DNA of 64,000 nucleotides from Desulfocicer vacuolatum DSM 3385 (GCF_900176365.1 NZ_FWXY01000006.1:62001-126000), one strand, 5' to 3'; counted from the first letter of the stretch, positions 1 to 43,497 are shown. Made by a program: numbers and translations. The notes: a model not told the origin generated them from the letters alone.

Positions 1-2
1 TT

Positions 3-284
3 GAGCCCATTGCCCAGTACCCGGTGGCCGGAAGAAGACTGGACATAGCATTGGTCCGAAATGGTGACAACCCATTAAAGCTGGACATAGAGGTGGACGG
101 TGACAGGTACCATAGGAATCCGGATGGTTCCCGGAAACAGGAAGATCTCTGGCGGGATTATCAGCTCAGAGGATTGGGTTGGGATATAAAACGTTTTTGG
201 GTGTACCAATTGAAGGAAAATCTGGACGGATGTGTGAATTCAATCCTCAAAATATGGAGAGGTTCTGATGACGGATTCAGATGA
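3..284 (+). CDS. C-terminal part of a protein ending in a Vsr/DUF559-like nuclease domain (cut by window edge)
   Basis: The reading frame is open from the window edge, so this is the tail of a larger protein; a GTG at 24 is an internal codon, not a convincing start. The tail has the strand-turn-strand pattern of a PD-(D/E)XK fold: LDIALV, then LDIEVDGDRYH (the D-x-E core, near nucleotides 81-113), then a charged helix with RKQEDLWRDY and a final GWDIKRFWVYQL strand. This is the layout of Vsr/DUF559/MTES_1575-type nuclease modules, which often sit at the C-terminus of superfamily 1 helicases. The helicase part is inferred, not seen. The gene overlaps the next by 17 bases, so it belongs to the same operon and probably supplies its nuclease. 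Confidence 0.6.
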   Translation, partial: EPIAQYPVAGRRLDIALVRNGDNPLKLDIEVDGDRYHRNPDGSRKQEDLWRDYQLRGLGWDIKRFWVYQLKENLDGCVNSILKIWRGSDDGFR

Positions 285-1911
285 TGTAAAAAAAAATCAA
301 CGTGTGGCGGAACAGGCGGATGGACGTGGGAAAGGGACTGGTAAGAAGGAGGGATGGTTTTTATCGCCTCCGGTGTGGGTAATGGTAGCTGGTCTTGTGC
401 TGATATTTGCCTTAAATTTTTTTTGCATCATCAAAGTCATGACGTTGGAAATTGAAAAAAATATATTGAAACAAAAAGAAACTGCCCTTCAGGCTGATAT
501 TGAAAGGCACACCGATATCCTTCAATCACTTCCCAGTCTGGAATCCCAGAGGGGTGAATTGAAAAAGCATATTGTCAATTTGCAGGGAAAATTAAGTGAC
601 CTCATACGCCGGGAAACGGAATTGATACAAAATATTGAAACCCGTAAAAAAGAACTTCATACAGCTGTTGCACAACGGTCACAGGCTGATGCCGCTGCAA
701 TGTCTGCACGGAAAGAGACAGGACGACTGCAGTCGGAAATATCTGCAAAGGAATCAAAAAAAGGCACGTTGGAAATAACTGTGGAAAAGCTTCGGCAGGA
801 CGAAGTTCGGCAAAAAGCCATTGCAGAAACATTAGCTTCCAAAGTGCAATCCTTGCAAACAGATATAGATATCTTGAACAGAACTAAAGAAAAAAACCTT
901 TTGGAACTGGAAGGTTTGACCCGTGACAACAAGCGGCTTGCAAAGGTTAATACCGATTTAGTGGAAATTGCAAAAGCCATGGATGAATCAAGAAAAATGG
1001 CTGATGCTGCAGTGAATGTTTTAAAGGAAACCACAGCAAAGGCAAAAAATGCTGTGGTGAGTCTGGAAACACATGCCCAAACCACAGAAAAAACTGTCCA
1101 GGGATTGACACGTGCTGATGCTGATTTGTCAGGGCTGATGGAAAGTATGGGCAATGAGAAAAATTTATTAAAAACAGCTATAACGGATTTAGGTGAAGCT
1201 GGAACAGAAGCCGGAAAGCAGGTAAAACGTTTATCCAGGCAGCTGAATGCTCCCATTGAAAATTTGAACAAAGATGTTGCAACACTGAGCATCCATACCG
1301 AGGCCGTTGGTGAATATGCTGACGTATTGGCAGTGATACAGGAAAAAATAACAAGCAGTGAAAAGGATTTCACATCGGTTACCCGTAAACTTGAATCATC
1401 TCAAATTTTCTTGGGTCAGGAAGTTAATTTGTTACAAAAAGAGAAAATACGTTTGGGAGGCAGCCTTTCCGAGTTTGAAATCAGTGTTCATGTTGCTGAA
1501 AATACAATGGCATTATTAAAGAAAACGGCTCTTGATCTGGGTGGGTTGGATTTTACAGAAAAGCGCTTGGCTATACAAAAAGTAGTTGATGAATTGAGTG
1601 TTTTGCAACAACAGATGGAGATAAAGCAGCAGGGTGTGGGGGAATTGATGGAAAAATTCAAGCAATCCGTGGATTCTGCCAATGTCGATGTAGGCGTTCT
1701 CCATGCCGGTGCCCTTAAAATTGAAAGCGGTGGTCAAAAATTAACGGATACGACCATGGCTTTGAATCATCAAGTTGAAGCCGTCAAAACAGCGGTGAAA
1801 AATTTAAATGAGCTTATGGAGCAAAACTCGCCCATGTACATATTCAGACCTGAAAATTCCATTGTAGATTCATATAGAGCAATCAATGAACACAAGGAGC
1901 AGTCAAAATGA
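268..1911 (+). CDS. Membrane-anchored coiled-coil protein of a defence-like operon
   Basis: A 547-residue protein with a short charged N-terminus, one transmembrane segment at about residues 31-53 (VWVMVAGLVLIFALNFF) and then almost continuous heptad-type coiled coil rich in K, E, Q, L and T to the C-terminus. No catalytic motif is visible. The ATG overlaps the stop of the upstream nuclease gene and the last bases overlap the next start, so translation is probably coupled. By layout it could be a membrane-bound scaffold or sensor working with the next protein, which has the same plan of N-terminal membrane helix plus long coiled coil. ZorA-like or MCP-like roles are possible, but no MotA-type helices are present. 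Function is inferred from context only. Confidence 0.75.
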   Translation: MTDSDDVKKNQRVAEQADGRGKGTGKKEGWFLSPPVWVMVAGLVLIFALNFFCIIKVMTLEIEKNILKQKETALQADIERHTDILQSLPSLESQRGELKKHIVNLQGKLSDLIRRETELIQNIETRKKELHTAVAQRSQADAAAMSARKETGRLQSEISAKESKKGTLEITVEKLRQDEVRQKAIAETLASKVQSLQTDIDILNRTKEKNLLELEGLTRDNKRLAKVNTDLVEIAKAMDESRKMADAAVNVLKETTAKAKNAVVSLETHAQTTEKTVQGLTRADADLSGLMESMGNEKNLLKTAITDLGEAGTEAGKQVKRLSRQLNAPIENLNKDVATLSIHTEAVGEYADVLAVIQEKITSSEKDFTSVTRKLESSQIFLGQEVNLLQKEKIRLGGSLSEFEISVHVAENTMALLKKTALDLGGLDFTEKRLAIQKVVDELSVLQQQMEIKQQGVGELMEKFKQSVDSANVDVGVLHAGALKIESGGQKLTDTTMALNHQVEAVKTAVKNLNELMEQNSPMYIFRPENSIVDSYRAINEHKEQSK

Positions 1912-4649
1912 ACGTCGCCATCCCACTTATTCCATCCTTTGCATGGCTTCTGGCAATCGCATTGTCCATGACCCTTTTGTTGATTATTTTTTTTCTGTAT
2001 TTGTTTCAGCGTCAAAGGACGGCCTTGATCACAGGACTTCAAGGTTCTGTTGCGTCTCTCAGTGTCAAGGAAGAACGTCTCATTGAAAACATTCGGCAGT
2101 TAAATGAGGATAAATCAAAAGTAGAGGATTACATTCAAAACCAAAAGCAGGATTTGCTTCGGTTGAATACAGAGCAAGCCAGGCATGCAAAGCTGCGGAC
2201 GGAGTTGGATGAGATGACCCGGCAATTATTGGATAATCGGGCTCAAAGTGACTCGCTCAGGGCTACAGTGGCAACGCTTGAAATCGAAAATCGTTTGTTA
2301 AATGATAACAAAAATGAAATCCAAAGTGAATTATCCTTGCTTGCATCCCGGCGTGATGAGCTGACTGAGAAAATAGAAGAATGCAACGCCGAGTTTCAGG
2401 ATCAGAAACAACAAAATAAAAATCAGTTAATAGAACTTCAGAGGGAGCATGAGAAATCGCTTGAGGAACAGCAGAATATAAATACTCGTTTGTTTACTGA
2501 AGCTGAGGAGGAGCATAAGAAAAGGGTTGAGCAACTTTTAGAGCAAATTAGAAAACCGATTCTGGAGAAAAAAGAAACCATAGCTGCCTTGGAAGTTAAT
2601 ATACAAGCATTAAATGATGAATTGGAGGCCTTAACCCAGCGCAGACAAGAGGCTTCTGAACACCTCCAAGGGCTTAACAGCAACATTGATAAAAAAGAAG
2701 TCCGCCTACAGAGCCTTGGGACTGAATGCGGCAATAAGGAAAGATGGATTTCGGATGCTCAAGATAAAATACAAGGCCTGCTTATGGAAATTAAAGAATT
2801 GGAAGAGGTCTATAACGAACTGCTTGGGGCCCAGAATGAACTGACAAATATAAAGCAGATTGTTGATGATTTGAAAAAAACCAAGCTTCAACTGGATACG
2901 GATTGTCAGAAAAAAGAGGCATTGTGCTCAAATATCGCTGATATGATTGAACAATTAGAAATGGACAAAAATGATGCAGTGGCTGAATTTAAAGGCCATA
3001 TAAATGGGCTGGAAGTAGAGAAAACAAAAAAGGAAAGCCAAATCGAATCCTTGAGAGAGGAGCTATTAAGACTTCAACAGGCTAAAAAAGATTTATTGGA
3101 AATTGAAAGCAGAATCGTTGATTTGACAGTTCGATTGCAATTGCTTGAATCGAACTGTTCTCAAAAACAGGGGAATTTGGAGACGCTTAAAGAGCTTGAA
3201 CAGCAGAAAAACGATTTGTTGGCAACCTTGAGCTCTAAAATAAACGATCATGAGGCGGCCATTGATGAAATGAACAATACAAGAAATAAGAGTCAGGCTG
3301 ATTTGGACAGCCTTATTTCAAAAATTGAGGATAGAAGAGAAGAGTTGGTCAAAATTGAAAAGGGGATCAATCGACTGGAAAATGAAAAAAATCGGCTGGA
3401 AGATGAATTAAAGAAAATGAAAAAAATGAAGCAGCCGGGGGATAATATCGATTCTATTGAAGATCTCCTTAAAAAGCCCGCTTGTTTCGATGCAACAATT
3501 TTTCCAGCTGAATCTTTGCACACCGATGAAGTTCAGATGCTCCAGAATTTTAAGCAATCCCTGAGAAACGATAAATTGTTTTTTCACGACCGCGTCATCA
3601 ATGCCTTTCATACCTCATTGAAATGTGTCGGAATTAATCCTTTGACCGTATTGGCAGGTATTTCCGGCACCGGAAAAACACTGCTTCCCATTAAATATGC
3701 CCAGTTTATGGGGATGCATCAGCTGATCCTGTCTGTGCAGCCCCGCTGGGATTCTCCCCAGGACATGTTTGGATTCTACAATTATCTGGAAAACCGATAC
3801 AAGGCCACTGACCTCTCCCGGGCTTTGGTGCGCATGGATGAATACAATTCTTTTGGAGATGTGGGAGGAACAAGTAAAGATCGCATGCTCATGGTTTTGA
3901 TGGATGAAATGAATCTGGCCCGGACGGAATATTATTTCAGCGAATTTTTATCAAAACTTGAATTGAGAAGGGAAATCAGGGATTTTTCTGATTTTTCAGA
4001 TCGTCAGAAAGGGGAAATTGTTCTTGATGTCGGCCCGGGACTCAAAGAGATGTCCAGATTATGGGTGGGGAGTAATGTGCTTTTTGTGGGTACTATGAAT
4101 GAAGATGAAAGTACATTGAGCCTTTCAGATAAGGTACTGGATCGTTCCAATGTACTGCGCTTTGGTAAGCCCGAGAAAGTGAACCCACAGGATTATTATT
4201 TTATTGATGTACCAGATGCTGGCGGTTTTCTGCCCCACGATCTGTGGCAAAACCATTGGATAAAAAAATATGATGCGATTTTCCCCTGGACCGATAAGGT
4301 TGGCGTCTGGACAGATGAAATTAACAAAGCCCTGCACAAAGTCAGCAGAGCATTTGGGTTCAGAACGGAGTCAGCCATCAAGGCCTATGTGGCAAATTAT
4401 CCCGAATCCGGGGAGATTGAAGGTGTATATAAACAAGCCTTTGCAGATCAGGTTGAACAAAAAATTTTACCGAGGGTCAGGGGCCTTGAACTTATGGATC
4501 AGCACTCACAGGAATGTCTGATGAAGATACAGGACGTCGTCAATTCTCTTGAAGATAAGGAACTTGCCAACGCTTTTAAAAATGCAATGGAAAACAACCA
4601 TTTAGGCTTGTTTCAATGGAATGGTGTACCCCGTAGCTTAGAGGTCTGA
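1908..4649 (+). CDS. Membrane-anchored coiled-coil protein with C-terminal McrB/MoxR-like AAA+ motor
   Basis: A 913-residue protein in three parts. Residues 8-33 form one transmembrane helix. Residues 35-505 are an unbroken coiled coil. The C-terminal 370 residues are an AAA+ domain with Walker A GISGTGKT (about 583-590), Walker B LMVLMDEMNLA (about 656-666), and the segment GTMNEDESTLSLSDKVLDRS (about 725-744), which combines a sensor-like MN with a downstream arginine-finger-like DRS. This is closest to the McrB/MoxR branch of AAA+ motors. Fusion of a McrB-like motor to very long coiled coils is the hallmark described for CoCoNuT type IV restriction systems. Nucleotide preference (GTP or ATP) cannot be told by eye. 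The start overlaps the previous gene by four bases (ATGA). Confidence 0.85.
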   Translation: MNVAIPLIPSFAWLLAIALSMTLLLIIFFLYLFQRQRTALITGLQGSVASLSVKEERLIENIRQLNEDKSKVEDYIQNQKQDLLRLNTEQARHAKLRTELDEMTRQLLDNRAQSDSLRATVATLEIENRLLNDNKNEIQSELSLLASRRDELTEKIEECNAEFQDQKQQNKNQLIELQREHEKSLEEQQNINTRLFTEAEEEHKKRVEQLLEQIRKPILEKKETIAALEVNIQALNDELEALTQRRQEASEHLQGLNSNIDKKEVRLQSLGTECGNKERWISDAQDKIQGLLMEIKELEEVYNELLGAQNELTNIKQIVDDLKKTKLQLDTDCQKKEALCSNIADMIEQLEMDKNDAVAEFKGHINGLEVEKTKKESQIESLREELLRLQQAKKDLLEIESRIVDLTVRLQLLESNCSQKQGNLETLKELEQQKNDLLATLSSKINDHEAAIDEMNNTRNKSQADLDSLISKIEDRREELVKIEKGINRLENEKNRLEDELKKMKKMKQPGDNIDSIEDLLKKPACFDATIFPAESLHTDEVQMLQNFKQSLRNDKLFFHDRVINAFHTSLKCVGINPLTVLAGISGTGKTLLPIKYAQFMGMHQLILSVQPRWDSPQDMFGFYNYLENRYKATDLSRALVRMDEYNSFGDVGGTSKDRMLMVLMDEMNLARTEYYFSEFLSKLELRREIRDFSDFSDRQKGEIVLDVGPGLKEMSRLWVGSNVLFVGTMNEDESTLSLSDKVLDRSNVLRFGKPEKVNPQDYYFIDVPDAGGFLPHDLWQNHWIKKYDAIFPWTDKVGVWTDEINKALHKVSRAFGFRTESAIKAYVANYPESGEIEGVYKQAFADQVEQKILPRVRGLELMDQHSQECLMKIQDVVNSLEDKELANAFKNAMENNHLGLFQWNGVPRSLEV

Positions 4650-4651
4650 TA

Positions 4652-6373
4652 ATGATTCCTGCTATTTGTCGCTGGCCATGGTCAGTGGGTATTGAAGATG
4701 AATCCTATCCTCTGGATGAAGACGGGGTTGAATTTCATTTCCTGGGGTCTCCAGTTCTTATCCTGCCACATGAAGCAAAAATTCTGCTTCCCGAACGATA
4801 TGAAAGGTTTTTTCCCCTTGGCCCCTGTTGTACAAATGGTAACAGGGTATACGAAGCCCCCCATGGTGTACTGTCCCATGGTAGGCAGGCAAGTAATCAG
4901 GTAATGATTTTTTCTAATGGCAGACGGAAATTATTTCCCATCAATGCCATTGGTGCCCGTCCCCGCACGAGGGAAGATGGAAAAAAAGAGACATATCTGG
5001 CAAGAATCGTTTTGGGTTGGTCTCAGATTTTTGACAATATGATGGAGATAAAAGCAAAGACAAAGGACTGTGAGCCGGAAACAGGAGGACAACGGGAGAA
5101 AATCCCCTGGAAACAGGTGCTGGCCCTTATCAAAGAGCAGAAGGAAGAACGTGGTGCTCCCCGACGTTCACTGATTGTAAGCATTGCAGAATCCCAAAGG
5201 AAAAACCTTGCTGAAACCGTTTTACGTATGCGTCGTATTCTTTTAAGGGCTCGTGACATGCAGCGGGTTAATAGAATCAAAGAAATGGACCTTGGGTGCC
5301 TGCAGTGGTTTGTGAGACAACCGGGCGCATCCCATGCGGAAAAGGCCGGCAGTCGCCAGGAGCTTTTGGCTGTTGTCCGCAGGGAGTCCTTTGATGTACT
5401 TGAAAATCGGGTGCTAAAAGATTTTTTGCGTCGTTGTGCTTTGGAATCAATGCGTTACATCATAAATGAGGTGGATATTAATCCTAATTTCAAGGGTGCA
5501 CCAAAGGCATTAAGGGTGTTTGAATTCCGGAGATTATGCATGAACTTGTTGGATCATCCGGGATTGCAAACCGTGCCGTTGCCGGGTTCCGGTGTCAGGC
5601 CCAATTATGTACTCCAGAATGATGCCAGATATCGCCAGATTTGGGCCTGGTATTCCAAATTGTTGAGACGGGAAGACGATGAAGATCGCCTGTGGGACTG
5701 GCAGGCCCGGACATGGGCGGATATTGTACGCATGTTTGTCAATCTTGCCATAGATATGCTGCATAAGGAAGATGGTATGGGGAAGATGGTTCAAAATGGT
5801 TTCGGCATTGAAGAGATTTTTGGCTCATCCCTCCATGTCATTCGAGAGCAGATTCTTGGATGTCGCACCGCCAGTGGATCTGAACCTGGCCCATATGTTG
5901 TCAAACGAATTTCCCATGGCCGGGCGGTACCGGTTGCCATTCTGGAAGTGGTGCATCCTGATCAAGGGCATATGCATGATATTGTGAAACACTTTGGTCG
6001 CACCGGAGGACATCTTTACCTTGTGGTCCGGCCTTTGGAAAATGCGTTGGGTACAACCTATGTGATTATTGTGTGGGCAGTGAATACAGCAGGGTCTGAT
6101 CAAGAAAAAAATTGGACGGACATCTCCATGTCTGCATCAGCTGCCTTGAAAAAACATGGTGAGGCAATACGTGACCGTGGGTTGTGCAATGAACTTGTCT
6201 TGGATGGTCTTGTTATCGCCAATTCCCTTTCCATGATACAGGAGGCGGATGTGAAAGGTTTGTCTACTTCTGCACCTGTTTTTATTATTCCATCGGATGT
6301 TCTCCAGTGGCGACACCACGCCATTGAGTTTATTGCCACGCGTTTACTTGAAAGACTGAATGGATTGCGATGA
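4652..6373 (+). CDS. DUF2357-like (McrC-like) partner of the AAA+ motor
   Basis: A 573-residue soluble protein starting two bases after the AAA+ gene stops. The middle carries ESFDVLENRVLKDFLRR (about residues 245-261), which matches the ENxxLK signature of DUF2357 proteins, a family that pairs with McrB-like ATPases in the way McrC pairs with McrB. The N-terminal 150 residues are beta-rich, as in McrC-type adaptor domains. A PD-(D/E)XK catalytic triad is not obvious in the C-terminal 150 residues (VAILEVVHP and YVIIVWAV are strand candidates), so the nuclease may be degenerate or supplied by the first gene. Its likely job is to couple the AAA+ motor to target recognition or cleavage; this is inference from family and position. 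Confidence 0.65.
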   Translation: MIPAICRWPWSVGIEDESYPLDEDGVEFHFLGSPVLILPHEAKILLPERYERFFPLGPCCTNGNRVYEAPHGVLSHGRQASNQVMIFSNGRRKLFPINAIGARPRTREDGKKETYLARIVLGWSQIFDNMMEIKAKTKDCEPETGGQREKIPWKQVLALIKEQKEERGAPRRSLIVSIAESQRKNLAETVLRMRRILLRARDMQRVNRIKEMDLGCLQWFVRQPGASHAEKAGSRQELLAVVRRESFDVLENRVLKDFLRRCALESMRYIINEVDINPNFKGAPKALRVFEFRRLCMNLLDHPGLQTVPLPGSGVRPNYVLQNDARYRQIWAWYSKLLRREDDEDRLWDWQARTWADIVRMFVNLAIDMLHKEDGMGKMVQNGFGIEEIFGSSLHVIREQILGCRTASGSEPGPYVVKRISHGRAVPVAILEVVHPDQGHMHDIVKHFGRTGGHLYLVVRPLENALGTTYVIIVWAVNTAGSDQEKNWTDISMSASAALKKHGEAIRDRGLCNELVLDGLVIANSLSMIQEADVKGLSTSAPVFIIPSDVLQWRHHAIEFIATRLLERLNGLR

Positions 6374-9261
6374 ATAATAAAACTATAGTGGGCTGTTCTG
6401 CCTTTGGGTTACAGGATCATGTTTTGAAGATAGATCAAGAAACGTTGCCGCTTGTTTTGCGCAACGTTATTCAGGAACCCCTTATCCTTGCTGACGTAGT
6501 TTTGCCGGATAATTCCTTTGGGGAGATTCAAGCTGGAAAAAAGGCAAAGGACAAACGGGTACATTCCGGATTGCATTGGCCCGTTCAAGCTCGCATAAAG
6601 GAGGATGAACGGATGTCCCGTGTTCCAGTTTCCTGCGCCTGGAGGGGGTTGGTCGCCGCGGGGGATCGTCCCGTCCGATGGGATTCGGGAAAAGGCTCAA
6701 GTTCTTTTTTGAGTGCCATTCTTGCGGCACATGTAACTGAACTTTTAACACAATCCCATTGCAGACCCCGGGATACCGTGGTGCTTGCCATCCCCGATGC
6801 GCTGGATGAATTTGGACAGGATGCGTTACTCCGGGATCTGCGTAAAGCCGGTTTTGGGAATATTCAATTATTGTGGCGACCTGTGGCTGCAGCTCTTTCA
6901 TGGTTGTCAGCAGTGGATCAAAATAATGCATTTGCACCGGATATGGATGTTAAAGAGCACATTCTTGTGGTTTGCCTGGGTCCGGATGGTGTGGAAATGA
7001 CCCCGTTCCGATTACACCGGGAGCAATGTGAAAATGGTCTTTTTGTGATTCCGGTGCGTGATCGCCCACGTGAGATAATTCCCCTGACTGGTTTTGACTG
7101 GGCTGCCAATATTTTTCAATCGGCCATGCCTGGTCTGGAGATAGGGGCTTTCTGGCAGGTTTTTATGAATTTTCCGCATATATGGGAATCCATGGCTCAA
7201 CGTCCCCTTTCCGAAAAAAAAATTTGGTCCAGGCAAGATCAGTGGCGTTTTTGGCATCCCGGCGAAATGATGGGATATCATGTGCCAACGACTTCGGCTC
7301 GCCCCAATCATCGTTTGCGTAAGCTCCTGGGAAAATCCTGTCATATTCTCAATGCCAAATCAATTGGGCCTGCCGTATCCAGTCAGGATGATCTGAGCAA
7401 TCTTTTTAAGGATAGGTTGCAGGCAATACCTGGAAGTCGCTTGCGTGGTGTTATTATTTCCGGCCCACTTTGTCCTCAGAAGTTGCCTGGGTGGATATTT
7501 TCCGCAGATCAGGAACTCCGTGAGGCAGGTATTAAGAAGCCGTCGCAAGCATCACCACAAATTGACAGTGTTTGGTTGGCACATGATCAGAATATATGGG
7601 GGCATGGGTGTGCAGAGTATGCCCTTCGCCTTGACCGGGGAGAGCCAACTTATGTTGATACGCTGCCTAACCTTTCCATGCTGGTGGAAAGGCGGGGAGA
7701 ACATTTCTGGCTGGATCTCGTCAAGGCAGCCACATGTAAGGGAGGCGTCCCTTACAAACCGGAATCCATTTGTGGAAAATTCGCCATAAAGGCAGGCGGA
7801 AAAAGGCTTCAGGTGTATCTTAGAAAAGATCAACTGGATGGTGGCAGGGAACTGGAGTGGGAGAATGGTGGAGAGCAGGAACCATTCCCTGGCATTGATC
7901 AAAAAATAACTTTATCCGGGTCATATGACTCTGCCATCACTCTTTATCGGGAAAAATACAAAGAAGAAGATCACGACGGAGAAGTATTAAATTATATCCG
8001 AAAATTATCTGATCATTTGTTCGGAAATCCTTTTCGCAGGGTGGAATTTTCATTCCCATCGGTGGCACACAAAGATATTTCCCTGGATCTTAACCTGGAA
8101 ATTCGTCCTGCCAGTGGACTTGCACGGATTGAACTGTATCCAAGCAATGTTGGGGACAGGAATTTTTTGAGGGGAGGCCGAATTTTGATGGATTATGCCA
8201 CGATGCGGATAACTGACCCGCCCCCTTCTCCCAAATTGGGTTGGCCTCCGTTAAAGCTAATTAAAGTCGACCCCGATGCTTCTTTTTTAAATTATGGAAA
8301 GATTCAGATTCAACAGTATTTAAACACACCTGTTTGCAGGGAAGATCTTTTTGGAGATAGAATTTTTTCTGTTGAATTTGAAGGGGCTGTGGATGAGGTT
8401 AAAAAGATCTTAACAGAACAAAGAATCATTTTTGTCAATGGGGAACGGATAATTTTGTCCCCACCCATTGATCAGGACGGTTGTGCAGGAAATGCAATCG
8501 GGTCTGTAACCATAGATCGTGTGGCCACCAAAGTTGAGAATGATTATCATAACATCCCGATACATTATGAAAGAAAATTTCTGAGTAGAATGAGCTGGCT
8601 TTTTGCCAAAACACCGGACAATCTTAAACGGGGGATTCGACAATATTTAAGCAGTGAACGGGGTGATGGCAGAGACTGGCTTTATATGGTGGACGCTGCT
8701 GCTCGATCATTTACATCAACCGAGGAGTTTGAGTTTTTATACGCAGCCATTTTAAAAAAGATTAATACCAACCATGGAACCCCTTTTCCCATAAACTCTT
8801 CAAGGGCTCTCTTACGTTTGTTGACTTTGAGAAAGAATAGCCCACTGGCCATGAAACGAAAGGAAGCAAAAGTATTTACAGAAAAAACGGTTGAGATAAT
8901 GGAACAGGAATCAAAAAAGTTTTCCAATAATCAAAAAAAATATCCAAAATTTTTTCAGGCTGCGTTGCTTTTTCTTTATTTGTTGCGATTTCGAATGGTG
9001 GATCAAAGTTTTCTGGATGGAGACAATCCAGAGGACAGAAATTTGTTCAATCGCGCAATCAAATGTTTAAGAACTGGGCAGTGCTTCTTTTCTCAACAGA
9101 ATATAGCAGGTGATACTGCAGAAAAAATTGTGACGGCTATTGAACTGTTTATCTATTATGAAGGTTCTGATCTGCCAGCAGATTTTTATGAGCTTACCAG
9201 TGACGAAGAGGAAGAAGAAGAAGAAGAAGAAGATGATGATGATGATGATAAAGGAGATTAA
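6370..9261 (+). CDS. Divergent HSP70/actin-fold ATPase with acidic C-terminal tail
   Basis: A 963-residue protein overlapping the previous gene by ATGA. The N-terminal 380 residues follow HSP70 order with degraded motifs: a weak phosphate-1 strand (TIVGCSAFG, 5-13), a connect-like stretch VVLAIPDALDEFG (about 137-149) followed by LLWRPVAAAL (about 166-175, compare the usual EPTAAAL), a GFDWAA element near 243 and an adenosine-like strand GVIISGPLC (about 360-368). The C-terminal 550 residues are unlike canonical DnaK substrate-binding domains. It ends in a run of nine glutamates and six aspartates encoded by GAA/GAG and GAT triplets. It is too long and too divergent for DnaK. The likely role is an operon-specific chaperone or filament-forming ATPase; ATP hydrolysis is not assured. 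Confidence 0.65.
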   Translation: MNNKTIVGCSAFGLQDHVLKIDQETLPLVLRNVIQEPLILADVVLPDNSFGEIQAGKKAKDKRVHSGLHWPVQARIKEDERMSRVPVSCAWRGLVAAGDRPVRWDSGKGSSSFLSAILAAHVTELLTQSHCRPRDTVVLAIPDALDEFGQDALLRDLRKAGFGNIQLLWRPVAAALSWLSAVDQNNAFAPDMDVKEHILVVCLGPDGVEMTPFRLHREQCENGLFVIPVRDRPREIIPLTGFDWAANIFQSAMPGLEIGAFWQVFMNFPHIWESMAQRPLSEKKIWSRQDQWRFWHPGEMMGYHVPTTSARPNHRLRKLLGKSCHILNAKSIGPAVSSQDDLSNLFKDRLQAIPGSRLRGVIISGPLCPQKLPGWIFSADQELREAGIKKPSQASPQIDSVWLAHDQNIWGHGCAEYALRLDRGEPTYVDTLPNLSMLVERRGEHFWLDLVKAATCKGGVPYKPESICGKFAIKAGGKRLQVYLRKDQLDGGRELEWENGGEQEPFPGIDQKITLSGSYDSAITLYREKYKEEDHDGEVLNYIRKLSDHLFGNPFRRVEFSFPSVAHKDISLDLNLEIRPASGLARIELYPSNVGDRNFLRGGRILMDYATMRITDPPPSPKLGWPPLKLIKVDPDASFLNYGKIQIQQYLNTPVCREDLFGDRIFSVEFEGAVDEVKKILTEQRIIFVNGERIILSPPIDQDGCAGNAIGSVTIDRVATKVENDYHNIPIHYERKFLSRMSWLFAKTPDNLKRGIRQYLSSERGDGRDWLYMVDAAARSFTSTEEFEFLYAAILKKINTNHGTPFPINSSRALLRLLTLRKNSPLAMKRKEAKVFTEKTVEIMEQESKKFSNNQKKYPKFFQAALLFLYLLRFRMVDQSFLDGDNPEDRNLFNRAIKCLRTGQCFFSQQNIAGDTAEKIVTAIELFIYYEGSDLPADFYELTSDEEEEEEEEEDDDDDDKGD

Positions 9262-9441: not shown

Positions 9442-9576
9442 GGGCTTGGTTCTAACGTCGCCCAGTGGATATACTCCAAACACTCAATGATGAAAAAATT
9501 ATGATAAATTCAAATGAGTTAATAATTATTACCTGATGCGTGTTACTCAAAGTGGGCGAAGTTAGAACTAAGCCCA
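9442..9576. repeat. MITE family A, copy 1 (IS-derived terminal inverted repeats)
   Basis: A 135-bp element bounded by the inverted ends GGGCTTGGTTCTAACGTCGC (left) and the reverse complement of GGGCGAAGTTAGAACTAAGC (right), with an AT-rich centre and no gene. The same ends occur at 47.80, 60.24 and 61.45 kb; the last belongs to an IS with transposase remnants, which is probably the source of the ends. Confidence 0.75.
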
Positions 9577-9641
9577 AAACGGGTTATGGAGAAAAAAGTG
9601 GTCAAGTTTCATCTCATGACAATCTTACTCAGATAATTCAA

Positions 9642-10136
9642 ATGGTTTTGAAAATTTTTCCTTTTGTTACAATAAGATATGATATTCATGGGAGGGCTCA
9701 TGCAAATTGGGTTTTATTTTTTGTTAACATGCTTTCCGGCATGCTCCAGGCAGATAAAGAGATTGATTTACGTATCATAACGATTGCAGCACTTTTGCAT
9801 GATAATGGTAGAGAAAATGATGGAAAAGATCCTTTTCATGCGGATCAATCTGCTGAAATTGCCAGCCGGTTTATTAATACACATTATATAGATTGCAATG
9901 AAGAATTGATTATAAAAACAATACGATATCATTGTCAATCGGATGCATTTACTTGGACGTATCCTGCGCTTGAAGCAAAAATTGTAAGTGATGCAGATAA
10001 ATTGGATAGATTCCGATTGAAAAGAGAAAGTCCACTGAATAAAGATCTGTTGGAACTTCCGGAAAGCCATGGGCTTATTGATATTGCATCAAGGATAAAT
10101 GACCATTCATTCAGGACTTTTAAATATTCAGGTTAA
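9642..10136 (+). CDS. HD-domain metal-dependent phosphohydrolase
   Basis: The protein has the HD-superfamily order of metal ligands: HGRAHANWV, then ALLHDNGREN (the HD pair), a later RYHCQ histidine, and KIVSDADKLDRF near the C-terminus. This is a small stand-alone HD hydrolase of the YedJ/predicted-phosphohydrolase kind, about 165 residues from the ATG used here. The frame stays open upstream to a GTG at 9540, but the first part of that longer version is encoded by the right end of a MITE, so the ATG at 9642 (MVLKIFPF) is preferred, with doubt; a sequence between the two may have been replaced by the insertion. The substrate (nucleotide or phosphoester) cannot be named. Confidence 0.65.
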   Translation: MVLKIFPFVTIRYDIHGRAHANWVLFFVNMLSGMLQADKEIDLRIITIAALLHDNGRENDGKDPFHADQSAEIASRFINTHYIDCNEELIIKTIRYHCQSDAFTWTYPALEAKIVSDADKLDRFRLKRESPLNKDLLELPESHGLIDIASRINDHSFRTFKYSG

Positions 10137-15404: not shown

Positions 15405-16028
15405 GTGAAATTATTATTATTTTGTGATGTTCACTGTGATGAAAATGTGTGTAAGCATATTGTACAATTGTCAAAGCAGGTGGATGTGGTAATCGGAGCC
15501 GGTGATTACGCCACCTTTCGCAAGGGACTTGATAAAACCATTGCCCGGCTCTCTGCCATTGAAACACCCACCCTGCTGGTGTTTGGCAACCATGAAAGCC
15601 CGGAGGAACTTGCCCGGGCCTGTGCCCCATGGCCGGCAGCCCGGATACTCCATGGCCGCGGGGTCACCATCAATGGTCATACTTTTTTTGGCATTGGGGG
15701 CTCCACACCGGTGACCCCCTTTGGAGAATGGTCCGTGGATGTGGCTGAAGACGTGGCCCGGACCCTTCTTGCCAAAGCCCCGGATAATTGTGTGCTGATC
15801 AGCCATTCCCCCCCGTTGAATTGCCTGGATCTTGCCGGGAACAATCAGCATCTTGGCAGCCGGGCCATCCGGGAATTCATAGAAACCCGTTCCCCGGGTC
15901 TTGCCGTGTGCGGTCATATCCATGAAGCCTGGAATTGCCGGGACTCCATTTCAGGGGTTTGTGTGATCAATCCCGGCCCCCAAGGTGTGATTCTTGATTA
16001 TCCCGGAGGAAAAAGCCTTGAAAATTAA
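15405..16028 (+). CDS. Calcineurin-like metallophosphoesterase
   Basis: A 207-residue phosphoesterase with all five metal-binding motifs in order: CDVH near residue 8, GAGD near 31, GNHE near 61, SHSP near 133 and GHIHE near 165. This is the YfcE/MPP-superfamily layout for a dinuclear metal enzyme acting on phosphodiesters or phosphomonoesters; the substrate is unknown. It starts at GTG or at the nearby ATGAAA-type codon after a weak site. The following ABC ATPase begins inside its last codons, so the two form a coupled pair, which is not a standard arrangement for either family. Confidence 0.85.
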   Translation: MKLLLFCDVHCDENVCKHIVQLSKQVDVVIGAGDYATFRKGLDKTIARLSAIETPTLLVFGNHESPEELARACAPWPAARILHGRGVTINGHTFFGIGGSTPVTPFGEWSVDVAEDVARTLLAKAPDNCVLISHSPPLNCLDLAGNNQHLGSRAIREFIETRSPGLAVCGHIHEAWNCRDSISGVCVINPGPQGVILDYPGGKSLEN

Positions 16029-17421
16029 AAACCTTTGCTGTGCCGGGACCAACAGCCTTGTGCTTACCATTGATCATTACGAGTTGCCCCCGGGAGAACC
16101 CCTTTTGGTGTGTGGCAGAAACGGCAGTGGAAAATCCCTGCTGGCAGCCATTCTTGCAGGGGAGAAGATCCCGGATCAGGGCACTGTATCGCTTTCCCCC
16201 CGGGTGGGTTTTCTTGGCTTTGCCCTGGAAGATCAGATACTGGAACAGGATCGCAAAATGGATTGCAGCGAGGAGATGGAAGGGGGCATTGACTGGGGCC
16301 GCACCGCCGGAGAAATCATTGGACAGGGTCCCAACCGCACCGCTGCCGTCAATTTGTCGGGCATTGCCAACCTTTTGGAAAAACCCTTTAAGATTTTGTC
16401 CACCGGTGAGATCCGCAAGGTTTTAATGGCCCGGGCCCTGGCAGCAGATCCCGATGTTCTTGTTCTGGACGCCCCCTATGCCGGTCTGGACATTGGGTCC
16501 CGGGAACAGTTGACCCACATCATCAACACGGTCATTGGGCAGGGTACTGCCGTGATCCTGGTGGATTTTTATCACCCGGATCTTCCCCATGCCATTAAAA
16601 ACATGATTTATCTTGAAAAGGGAAAAATCGTTTTAAAAGGAGATCGCAAAGCCGTGACAGCTTCCCGGGCCTGGCAACGGCACAATGCCCATGATATCTC
16701 CTTGCCCCACCACCTGCCCGATTGTTTTACCTACGATCACCTGGACCCGGAGGCCCCCTTTGTCCGGGCAAAGAATATTTCTGTTTCCTTTAATGACATT
16801 CCAGTGTTCAGCAACCTTGACTGGACATTCCGTCCCGGGGAGAACTGGCACATCCTGGGGCCCAACGGCTGTGGCAAATCCACCCTTTTAAAGCTTATTT
16901 CCGGTGACAGCACCAAGGCCTATGGTCAGGACTTGACCCTGTTTGGCATTAAACGGGGAAGCGGGGAAAGTATCTGGGATATAAAGCGCCATTATGGCAT
17001 TGTGGGGGCCGAGCTGCACCGGGATTACCGGGCCGGTGCCACCTTGCTCGGGGTGGTGGTTTCCGGATTCTTTGACACCATTGGCCTTTATGATACCCCC
17101 ACGGCCACCCAGATCGATGTGGCAAAAAAGTGGATTGAGCTTTTAAAGCTTGGGGAAAAAGAGCAAAAATATTTTTCCACATTGTCCTATGGCGAACAAC
17201 GCCTGGCCCTCATTGCCCGGGCCGTGGTCAAGCTGCCCCTGATCCTGATACTGGACGAACCCTGCCAGGGCCTTGACAATGTCAACCGGGCCCGGGTGCT
17301 GGCCCTTATCGATTACATCAGTGCCAACAGTAACACCCACATCCTCTTTGTAAGTCATGACCCCAGGGATCACCTGGAGTGCCTGACCCATCAACTTAAG
17401 GTCCAGGATTTTAATAATTAA
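16018..17421 (+). CDS. Tandem ABC ATPase, ModF/PhrA-like
   Basis: A single chain of about 468 residues with two ABC nucleotide-binding domains and no membrane segment. Domain 1 has GRNGSGKS and an LSTGEIRK signature; domain 2 has GPNGCGKST and LSYGEQR with an ILDEPCQGLD Walker B. The size and order fit the ModF (PhrA) group, a soluble ATPase found near molybdate transport genes in some bacteria; no molybdate permease lies nearby here. The first domain's Walker B reads LVLDAPYAGLD, with alanine in place of the catalytic glutamate, so this site may be inactive. TTG at 16018 is chosen because GGAGG lies ten bases upstream, within the end of the phosphoesterase gene. Confidence 0.8.
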   Translation: MKIKNLCCAGTNSLVLTIDHYELPPGEPLLVCGRNGSGKSLLAAILAGEKIPDQGTVSLSPRVGFLGFALEDQILEQDRKMDCSEEMEGGIDWGRTAGEIIGQGPNRTAAVNLSGIANLLEKPFKILSTGEIRKVLMARALAADPDVLVLDAPYAGLDIGSREQLTHIINTVIGQGTAVILVDFYHPDLPHAIKNMIYLEKGKIVLKGDRKAVTASRAWQRHNAHDISLPHHLPDCFTYDHLDPEAPFVRAKNISVSFNDIPVFSNLDWTFRPGENWHILGPNGCGKSTLLKLISGDSTKAYGQDLTLFGIKRGSGESIWDIKRHYGIVGAELHRDYRAGATLLGVVVSGFFDTIGLYDTPTATQIDVAKKWIELLKLGEKEQKYFSTLSYGEQRLALIARAVVKLPLILILDEPCQGLDNVNRARVLALIDYISANSNTHILFVSHDPRDHLECLTHQLKVQDFNN

Positions 17422-40908: not shown

Positions 40909-43497
40909 TCACCGGAGGCAGGGAATCTGTGTGTGAAGGGTGTTGTTTTTTATGTCAGCAGGAAGTATCTGGATGGCAAAGGCATTGCCATGGGTTGCCA
41001 CCATTTTAAGGGCTGCTTTAAATTTTTCCCCTTTTAACGGTTTAAATACATAGGCCCGGGTTTTTTTACCCTGTAAAAGGGTCTCGATATTTTTTTCAGT
41101 GAGACGTTTACCAAGAATTTCTTTCCAGATCACAAACCGGCAATTGCCGTGTTCCGGTCGCCAGTTGCTGCATCCAAAGGCGGTTTTCCCCTCAATGATT
41201 TTTCCTTTGCACATGGGGCAGCAGCCCTTTTTGTCCGGGGTGCCGGAAGAAGATGGTTCATGGGACAGGGCCGGCGGGGTTTTAAAAGGCGTTTCGTTCA
41301 TATCCATTATACCCATATCCATGGCAACATGAAGAGGGGATTCCGGTGGGCAGGTGTCAGGGGCCTTTGATGTGTTAAAATCAAAATTTACCTTCCACTT
41401 TCCATCCACTTTATTGATAACAAGCCCTGCTGAAAATCGTTTTTTCTTTTTGGAAATAAATCCCTTAAATGGACCTGATTTGCGAAATTTTAACAAATTG
41501 GATGCCATCTTGGGAGAAATCTGTTTCCCGGCCATGCGTTTCCAAATCACAAAATCGCACCCGGTTCCGTCACAGGCATACAGTTTGGGAAGTTCCCGGA
41601 CACTGTTGCCGCAGGCCGGGCATTTGCCCACCTCCTTTGCATTGGCCCGGGACAGGGCCTGGGAGAATTTTTTAATATCAAACACCTTGGTCTGCAGTTC
41701 ACCCACCGCCTGGGTTACAAAGGTTTTGATCTCTTTTAGAAACTGACCGTCCGGGGCCTCGCCCAGGGCAATGGCGTTGAGCTTCATCTCCCACCGGGCT
41801 GTCTCCTCCGGGGAGGTGAGCACCGAAGATGTGGCACATTTTTTTAATTGCTCAATGAGATAGATGCCTTTATCTGTGGCCACCAGGCGTTTGCCGGTGC
41901 GTTCAATGTAGTTGCGCCGGATCAGGGTCTCAATGATCTGGGCCCGGGTGGACTGGGTCCCGATGCCGATCTCCCCTCGGTACAGTTTTTTAATGTTTTC
42001 TTCGGCCACATATCTTCCGGGGTTGGTCATGTCCTTTAACAGCAGCGCATCGGAGTAGTCCGGGGGCGGGGTGGTCTTTTTTTCTTCACACAATATCTTT
42101 TCCGGGGTGCCGGTGTCCCCTTTGCACAGGGGCGGAATGGGCTCTGCTTCGTCTTTGTTTCGGGATTTGATGTGATACACCCGCCGCCAGCCGGGCTCCA
42201 GGATCACTTTGCCCCGGGTCTGGAAGGTTTCTTTGCCAAACTCTGTGATGAGGTGGGTGTTTTCAAAATGGCAATGGGGGTGGAATGCTGCGGCAAAGCG
42301 TCGGCACACCAGGTCAAAAATTTTTTTTTCATCAGGGGTTGCACCGGCGGGAATGGGTTTAAAGGGAATCAGGGCATGGTGGTCGGTGAGTCTGGCATCG
42401 TTGAACACCCGTTTGTTGGATAGCGCCACCTGTTGCGGGTCCACCCCGGCAAAGATATCGGGGTAGGCTGTTTGACATTTTGCAAGAATATCCCGGACCA
42501 GATTAAGGCTTGTGGTGCCAAGGACCCTGGAGTCCGTACGGGGGTAGGAGAGGCATTTTTTATCCTGGTAAAGGGACTGGGCAACGGCCAGCGTCTTTTT
42601 TGCAGGAAATCCCATGCGGGCATTGGCCTCCTGCTGGAGGTCGGTGAGGGAAAAAAGCAGGGGCGGTGGCTCTTTTTTCTTCTCTTTTGTCAGGGAAAGT
42701 ACGGTGCCGGGATCGGTCTCCTGTTTAAGATGTTGGTGAAGCGTCCGGGCTGTCTCTTTTTGGGTAATACGGGTCTGTTTGTTTTTAAACCAGTGGCCGG
42801 TCCATTCCCCTTTATCGCTTTTAAACCGAATTTTTATCAGCCAGAACAGCTCCGGCACAAAGGTTTCTCTTTCTTGTTTCCGTTGGGCCAGAAGGGCCAG
42901 CACCGCCGTTTGCACCCGGCCCACGGAAAAAAGATCCCCCAGGCGCACGGTGAGGGCCCGGGTGAGGTTCATGCCCACCAGCCAGTCTGCCACCTGGCGG
43001 TAGTAGCCTGCCCGCCACAGGCGATCGTAATGGGTCAGGGGCTGCAGCTGCTCCATGGTGGCTCTCACCACCTTGGGTACCAGGGCCTGGCTGGTCCAGA
43101 ATCTCACCATGCGTTCTTTGTCCACCACCCCGGATTGAAGAAGGATGGTGCGGGCAATCACTTCCCCCTCCCGACCGGCATCCGTGGCAATGATGATGCG
43201 GGAAAACCGGGATTGTTTAACCAGATTTTTAATGGTTTTAAACTGTTTGAGGGTTTTCCCCATGGGCTTGTATTTAAAGGTGTCTGGAATCAGGGGCAAT
43301 GTTTCCATGCGCCATTTTTTTAATCCGGGATCATAATCATCCGGGGCATACAGTTCCACCAGATGGCCCACAGCCCAGGTGATGACGTAGTTTTCCCCTT
43401 CAAAAAAACCGTCTTTTTTTGTTTTAACGCCAAGGGCCTTGGCAAAGTCAGCGGCCACAGAATGTTTTTCAGTTAAGATCAGCTCAGTCATGTCCAT
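40909..43497 (-). CDS. topB: DNA topoisomerase III (type IA)
   Basis: An 862-residue type IA topoisomerase. The toprim domain opens with ELILTEKHSVAADFAKALG and contains IATDAGREGEVIAR; the active-site tyrosine lies in SYPRTDSRVL; the domain IV segment GIGTQSTRAQIIETLIRR is typical of TopB. The C-terminus carries zinc-ribbon-like cysteine sets (CPACG...CDGTGC and CPMCK...CSNW) and Topo_C-type repeats (FKGFISKKKKRFSAGL), longer than E. coli TopB and closer to plasmid- or ICE-associated TopB proteins. It decatenates or relaxes single-stranded regions. A start at 43491 is equally possible. There is no mobile-element machinery next to it. Confidence 0.92.
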   Translation of the reverse strand: MDMTELILTEKHSVAADFAKALGVKTKKDGFFEGENYVITWAVGHLVELYAPDDYDPGLKKWRMETLPLIPDTFKYKPMGKTLKQFKTIKNLVKQSRFSRIIIATDAGREGEVIARTILLQSGVVDKERMVRFWTSQALVPKVVRATMEQLQPLTHYDRLWRAGYYRQVADWLVGMNLTRALTVRLGDLFSVGRVQTAVLALLAQRKQERETFVPELFWLIKIRFKSDKGEWTGHWFKNKQTRITQKETARTLHQHLKQETDPGTVLSLTKEKKKEPPPLLFSLTDLQQEANARMGFPAKKTLAVAQSLYQDKKCLSYPRTDSRVLGTTSLNLVRDILAKCQTAYPDIFAGVDPQQVALSNKRVFNDARLTDHHALIPFKPIPAGATPDEKKIFDLVCRRFAAAFHPHCHFENTHLITEFGKETFQTRGKVILEPGWRRVYHIKSRNKDEAEPIPPLCKGDTGTPEKILCEEKKTTPPPDYSDALLLKDMTNPGRYVAEENIKKLYRGEIGIGTQSTRAQIIETLIRRNYIERTGKRLVATDKGIYLIEQLKKCATSSVLTSPEETARWEMKLNAIALGEAPDGQFLKEIKTFVTQAVGELQTKVFDIKKFSQALSRANAKEVGKCPACGNSVRELPKLYACDGTGCDFVIWKRMAGKQISPKMASNLLKFRKSGPFKGFISKKKKRFSAGLVINKVDGKWKVNFDFNTSKAPDTCPPESPLHVAMDMGIMDMNETPFKTPPALSHEPSSSGTPDKKGCCPMCKGKIIEGKTAFGCSNWRPEHGNCRFVIWKEILGKRLTEKNIETLLQGKKTRAYVFKPLKGEKFKAALKMVATHGNAFAIQILPADIKNNTLHTQIPCLR

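Follow-up and report, generated by a model that had tools for sequence, protein, structure and literature searches.

Five genes of Desulfocicer vacuolatum DSM 3385 that very probably form a Type III-B CoCoNuT, with conserved predicted membrane anchors on two proteins

Which system is encoded by the five tightly packed genes at the beginning of this stretch of DNA, and do the membrane anchors of two of their products belong to it? The window analyzed here is the whole stretch of 64,000 nucleotides (C29:62001-126000) from the 5.04-Mb, 80-contig assembly of D. vacuolatum. Four complete plus-strand genes occupy positions 268-9261, and positions 1-284 hold the 3' end of a fifth (Table 1). An earlier note had described the genes as overlapping or nearly touching. 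This is indeed the case: the overlaps are 17 bp (cnuH/cnuA), 4 bp (cnuA/cnuB) and 4 bp (cnuC/cnuD), and a 2-bp gap separates cnuB from cnuC. The note had also guessed that an SF1 helicase would lie upstream. The gene extends upstream on the same contig (C29:58829-62284, 1151 aa, ending at window position 284) and encodes such a helicase, of which the 'nuclease-tailed protein' of the note is the end. The note also concluded from the overlaps that the stoichiometry is fixed and that there is one complex; this is more than the evidence allows, as overlaps suggest co-expression only.

Table 1. Genes and protein features of the locus, with positions counted from the first nucleotide of the window.
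Feature	Position	Strand	Basis
cnuH, 3' end: SF1 UPF1-like helicase with fused Vsr/MTES_1575-like PD-(D/E)xK nuclease	1..284	+	AAA_11, AAA_12 and MTES_1575 matches; invariant residues
cnuA: predicted single-pass membrane protein with long coiled coil, 547 aa	268..1911	+	SMC-like matches
CnuA predicted TM segment, about residues 29-55, basic tail before	352..432	+	hydropathy
cnuB: predicted membrane-anchored coiled coil fused to McrB-like NxD GTPase, 913 aa	1908..4649	+	PADLOC PDC-M26A (1.4e-38); SMC-like matches; invariant motifs
CnuB predicted TM segment, about residues 10-33, followed by RQR	1935..2006	+	hydropathy
CnuB coiled-coil region, about residues 35-520	2010..3467	+	SMC-like matches
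CnuB Walker A, GISGTGKT	3657..3680	+	invariant in alignment
CnuB NxD signature, N-E-D then E; motif of the CoCoNuT branch	4098..4106	+	invariant in 7; relatives; PMC11090510
cnuC: McrC-like, 573 aa; Ig-like N-domain (1-101), DUF2357 helical part, C-terminal PD-(D/E)xK fold without catalytic residues	4652..6373	+	Pfam, alignment, model, fold search
cnuD: Hsp70-like nucleotide-binding and substrate-binding domains (2-614), C-terminal helical part (635-943), 963 aa	6370..9261	+	model, fold search

The CoCoNuTs were described by Bell et al. 2024 (eLife, PMC11090510), and their Type III-B is a predicted bacterial antiviral system. In the main text of that paper, the Type III-B architecture is cnuH-cnuA-cnuB-cnuC-cnuD. 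What defines the type is that the helicase carries a fused Vsr-like nuclease, that the coiled-coil protein CnuA and the Hsp70-like CnuD are both separate proteins encoded alongside CnuB, and that TerY-P is lacking. The same text gives CnuC an Ig-like domain and a dead nuclease, CnuD HEAT-like helical repeats, and CnuH an N-terminal Sul7s-like wHTH, an OB-fold and a large helical insertion after Walker A. The D. vacuolatum locus carries the helicase-Vsr-like fusion, a separate CnuA, a coiled-coil GTPase with the NxD signature, a McrC fold with an Ig-like domain and a dead nuclease, and a separate CnuD, and TerY-P is absent. As far as the family is concerned, the five genes very probably constitute a CoCoNuT of Type III-B, which belongs to a branch of type IV (McrBC-like) restriction. 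The earlier note was right about the resemblance to CoCoNuTs. It had taken the anchors and the HSP70-like protein for extra parts that it could not assign to a named subtype. In fact, both the HSP70-like protein and the coiled coil belong to the core of such a subtype, because a separate CnuD and a separate CnuA define Type III-B; the anchors are real and conserved, and the main text of the description does not mention them. This conserved membrane anchor on two proteins is the only new point. The architecture was already published, so that the match to a published system, which the note had set against its own proposal, exists at this level. The other reading that it had set against the proposal, a housekeeping MoxR, is rejected by the McrB-type NxD signature of the GTPase and by its McrC partner.

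The operon does not lie in an obvious defence island. The genes around it serve ordinary metabolism and transport, its GC content (0.41-0.48) is not distinct from that of the rest of the window, and a promoter and terminator scan gave weak matches near chance level. No gene separates cnuH from cnuA, and there is no separate CnuE. No TerY-P gene was found in about 8.8 kb upstream and 8 kb downstream, some small genes being judged by the ORF list only, and no signal-peptidase or pilus-assembly gene is present among the flanking genes. A search for an empty insertion site found the upstream EamA gene as the sole operon flank in family members, where its neighbourhood is not conserved. Directly downstream of the operon (9540-10136) lies an HD-domain gene with a GC content of 0.35, present in none of 85 other family genomes and not kept beside the operons of relatives. 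Elsewhere in the window, a metallophosphoesterase gene (PADLOC PDC-S10 match) overlaps an ABC-type ATPase gene at 15405-17421, and an 862-aa protein (40909-43497) gives a strong partial match to DpdF over residues 7-418 only, which may reflect merely a shared helicase domain.

The individual proteins agree with this assignment. The SF1 helicase part of CnuH matches AAA_11 and AAA_12, and its C-terminal nuclease is of the MTES_1575/DUF559 type, in the PD-(D/E)xK superfamily. Walker A, DEAS and the nuclease residues RRLD...DIEVDGD...HRNPDG are invariant in an alignment with six relatives, in which Walker A (407-413) and DEAS (754-757) stand about 340 residues apart, i.e. are parted by a large insertion. 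CnuA has a single hydrophobic segment, at its N-terminus, and apart from this only coiled-coil-type matches, with no other recognizable domain. In CnuB, a hydrophobic segment at the N-terminus is followed by a coiled coil of about 480 residues (SMC-like profile matches at about residues 45-510) and then by a GTPase that carries the motifs GISGTGKT, DEMN and MNEDE. MNEDE and the Walker residues are invariant in seven aligned relatives, and NxD occurs throughout the larger set of relatives, two rows of which are false motif matches of the search pattern. PADLOC, a check proposed in the note, matched residues 377-707 of CnuB with PDC-M26A, part of the PDC-M26 candidate system (2023). CnuB is the only component of that candidate found here, the other proteins matching generic helicase or coiled-coil models. 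Matches to Mokosh, Hhe, ProA and Druantia were rejected: they come from shared SF1 helicase/nuclease or coiled-coil similarity, and the other components of these systems are absent.

CnuC reaches the Pfam cut-off for DUF2357. Its model, built from 40 relatives, has a pLDDT of 91, and a fold search with it retrieved McrC as the best match (Z 8.7-9.5), with McrBC structures in all five top positions and restriction-enzyme folds also matched. Residues 1-101 match Ig-like filamin domains (Z 6.5). The catalytic D and ExK are absent, the corresponding alignment positions reading PGPYVV and LEVVH. The CnuD model, of modest confidence (pLDDT 70.6), shows an Hsp70 nucleotide-binding domain and substrate-binding domain, and its fold search gave DnaK/Hsp70 at Z 20-22, with DnaK at Z 22.5 over 422 residues. 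Residues 635-943 are mostly helical in the whole-protein model. CnuD is probably a degenerate Hsp70 for which nucleotide binding is likely and hydrolysis poor. Profile searches of CnuD against PDB sequences brought up antibody chains, which are low-score noise from a beta-strand region, and the fold search settled its identity. The same profile searches with CnuB and CnuC gave nothing useful.

The phylogenetic place of the GTPase was examined in a tree of 100 rows under a PMSF model. The D. vacuolatum protein groups with relatives of its own order in the III-B branch, which also holds Ruegeria, Paracoccus and Ferruginivarius (Alphaproteobacteria). This branch is sister to the cyanobacterial III-C and lies outside the III-A control. 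Support for III-B versus III-C is moderate (94/87), and the cluster of III-B, III-C and III-A is well supported (100/97 and 97/91); the root is unsure, with long outgroup branches. The hosts differ from those in the published description: the main text of PMC11090510 places Type III-B mainly in Alphaproteobacteria, whereas this locus and the majority of its near relatives belong to other phyla, chiefly Desulfobacterota and Planctomycetota.

The neighbouring types share part of the gene set. Cyanobacterial Type III-C systems, such as that of Synechocystis pSYSX, have an NxD GTPase, a DUF2357 protein and a separate CnuD, and the CnuB N-terminus is hydrophobic in Synechocystis (plasmid pSYSX, L110) and several others; their nuclease, in contrast, is a separate phospholipase D-family protein. 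Type III-A (e.g. the Klebsiella plasmid pKqs_SB610_4) likewise has a UPF1-like helicase, a coiled-coil NxD GTPase and DUF2357. It differs by adjoining TerY-P phosphatase and kinase genes, a separate effector gene and a CnuB without a TM segment, and further, according to the main text of PMC11090510, by a CnuC fused to CnuD and a separate HEPN CnuE, whereas CnuC and CnuD are separate in D. vacuolatum. Prototype McrBC of E. coli K-12 is also built on a GTPase and a McrC partner, but it has NxxD, a DNA-binding domain in place of the coiled coil and an active McrC nuclease, and it lacks helicase and Hsp70.

We called a TM segment where the hydropathy of a 19-residue window reached 1.7 or more within the first 60 residues. 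By this test, CnuB is TM-positive in 68 of 79 III-B/III-C relatives that have more than 150 residues before the GTPase, and the relatives that fail are mostly just below the threshold or cut at a contig end. None of nine CnuB proteins from Types I-A, II and III-A is positive, and neither is any other NxD GTPase examined, the highest hydropathy among these being 1.6. The same test was positive for 1/80 CnuC, 0/73 CnuD and 0/54 helicases. For CnuA, 51 of 64 same-strand upstream neighbours are positive, and several of the 13 negatives are non-CnuA or truncated. The main text of PMC11090510 uses 'transmembrane' or 'membrane' in six places, none of them on III-B or III-C. Judged against that main text, the predicted anchoring, conserved across III-B and much of III-C, seems unreported.

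The charges flanking these segments give some indication of topology. CnuB has a short N-tail, and its net charge is higher on the C-side in 55 of 63 proteins, which would point to a cytoplasmic coil and GTPase. In CnuA, a basic N-tail (median 28 residues) precedes the TM segment, and the net charge is higher on the N-side in 39/48, versus 8/63 for CnuB; K+R counts flanking the CnuA segment are nevertheless tied (20 v 20), and the p values of the sign tests on these counts are too small, as the sequences are related. Hence CnuA and CnuB appear to insert in opposite senses, and the evidence leans, less surely than for CnuB, towards a periplasmic CnuA coil. Types III-B and III-C could then be inner-membrane machines unlike Types I-A, II and III-A, with the CnuB ring in the cytoplasm and, in III-B, a reversed CnuA with a periplasmic coil, coupling something that happens at the envelope, for instance phage injection, to the internal helicase-nuclease; we hold this picture only tentatively and would not count on it. 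As a variant of the preferred reading, within the same family, the periplasmic CnuA coil may act as a transmembrane envelope sensor that detects phage attachment or injection and triggers the cytoplasmic GTPase-helicase-nuclease. The N-side charge excess of CnuA favours this variant and the tied K+R counts speak against it, as does the fact that a periplasmic CnuA coil could not pair with the CnuB coil, a pairing suggested in the main text of PMC11090510. Such a sensor is possible but rather doubtful.

A GTDB scan by pattern yielded 145 relatives, and the best 80 of these 145 belong to Desulfobacterota, Planctomycetota, Verrucomicrobiota, Lentisphaerota, Pseudomonadota, Cyanobacteriota and others. 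The note had proposed comparing the gene order across genomes, and the outcome favours a real gene set: all five genes are present in 35 of 49 loci with enough flanking DNA, across unrelated phyla, the remaining 14 being mostly cyanobacterial Type III-C or loci where the helicase was not found. The order H-A-B-C-D occurs in 37 loci and A-B-C-D-H in about ten; since H-A-B-C-D recurs in unrelated phyla, the gene set is not due to chance. The order with the helicase-nuclease last (L059, L061, L064, L071, L085, L099) is found mostly in a Verrucomicrobiota/Lentisphaerota/Clostridia/Spirochaetota branch. Three loci (L079, L081, L084) look mixed, with a CnuC-CnuD fusion as in Type III-A, yet a TM-bearing CnuB and a separate CnuA; in L079 the helicase-nuclease is downstream. 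In four Phycisphaeraceae loci (L053, L058, L072, L073), CnuB reaches 1327-1675 aa with a very long pre-GTPase region, and the CnuD ORF is short. One locus (genome G630, L022:2129-6882) has cnuH in two pieces (735 and 479 aa) with a 344-aa antisense ORF between them; its remaining genes are open, and it is probably a disrupted system.

The family is rare. High-scoring GTPases (455-707 bits) were found in 8 of 395 Desulfobacterota genomes sampled, the next matches reaching at most 154 bits, and CnuD was matched in 4/297 phylum, 6/291 order and 3/86 family genomes. Copies are present on plasmids of Rhizobium tropici CIAT 899 and Sinorhizobium meliloti GR4, and a 62-kb IMG/VR contig (L137) has all five genes, in the order H-A-B-C-D, next to a gene for a single-strand binding protein (SSB). 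The combination of an Hsp70-like protein with a UPF1-like helicase could also mean that the genes form a housekeeping stress or RNA-quality-control module and not a defence system. Relatives of Hsp70 and UPF1 have roles in protein and RNA quality control, and the neighbour genes are of a housekeeping kind. We nevertheless consider such a module improbable, given its presence in few genomes of the phylum and family, its scatter over many phyla and its plasmid carriage. Such a rare and patchy occurrence is what one would expect of a defence module that spreads horizontally. Still less probable, to the point of being nearly dismissed, is a CoCoPALM-type system, in which an NxD GTPase is fused to an FtsB-like membrane coiled coil and linked to pilus assembly: the GTPase here does carry a membrane-anchored coiled coil, and CoCoPALMs are the sole group with GTPase TM helices in the main text of PMC11090510, but no signal-peptidase or pilus gene adjoins the locus, the helicase-Vsr fusion and the Hsp70 protein are present, and the GTPase groups with III-B/III-C in a tree without CoCoPALM reference sequences.

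The best overall explanation, which we regard as likely, is an inner-membrane Type III-B CoCoNuT that is predicted to counter phages and other invaders. It builds on the gene set and order, the motifs, the predicted folds, the phylogenetic place and the conserved anchors described above. The detailed mechanism that we propose for it could about equally be right or wrong. CnuB would assemble into a GTPase ring like that of McrB, tethered to the membrane through N-terminal helices, and both its coil and its ring would lie in the cytoplasm; the use of GTP is presumed from homology to McrB, and the membrane location from hydropathy. CnuC, with its dead nuclease fold, would dock on this ring and stimulate GTP hydrolysis. 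CnuD could serve as the part that recognizes the target, perhaps RNA or ribosomes, and CnuH would be recruited as effector to cut the nucleic acid of the invader. CnuA, separately anchored, may organize or trigger assembly at the envelope. We infer that the Cnu proteins assemble in this way. An RNA target is the prediction of Bell et al. in the main text of PMC11090510; with a Vsr-like nuclease, DNA could equally be the target. The defence role is suggested by the McrBC lineage, the patchy spread and the plasmid carriage. It is a role by association with this lineage, because no tested anti-phage activity was found in the literature for any Type III-B CoCoNuT.

As far as the literature searched shows, Type III-B CoCoNuTs have been predicted from sequence only. 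Homologs that are experimentally tractable exist on the plasmids of S. meliloti GR4 and R. tropici CIAT 899, and for III-C in Synechocystis PCC 6803. The anchors argue that the coils of CnuA and CnuB may not simply pair with each other. If CnuA were indeed an envelope sensor, the system would respond to entry and not to a nucleic-acid signature. The CnuB anchor, which the other types tested lack, offers a simple structural hypothesis on where and how Type III-B may act.
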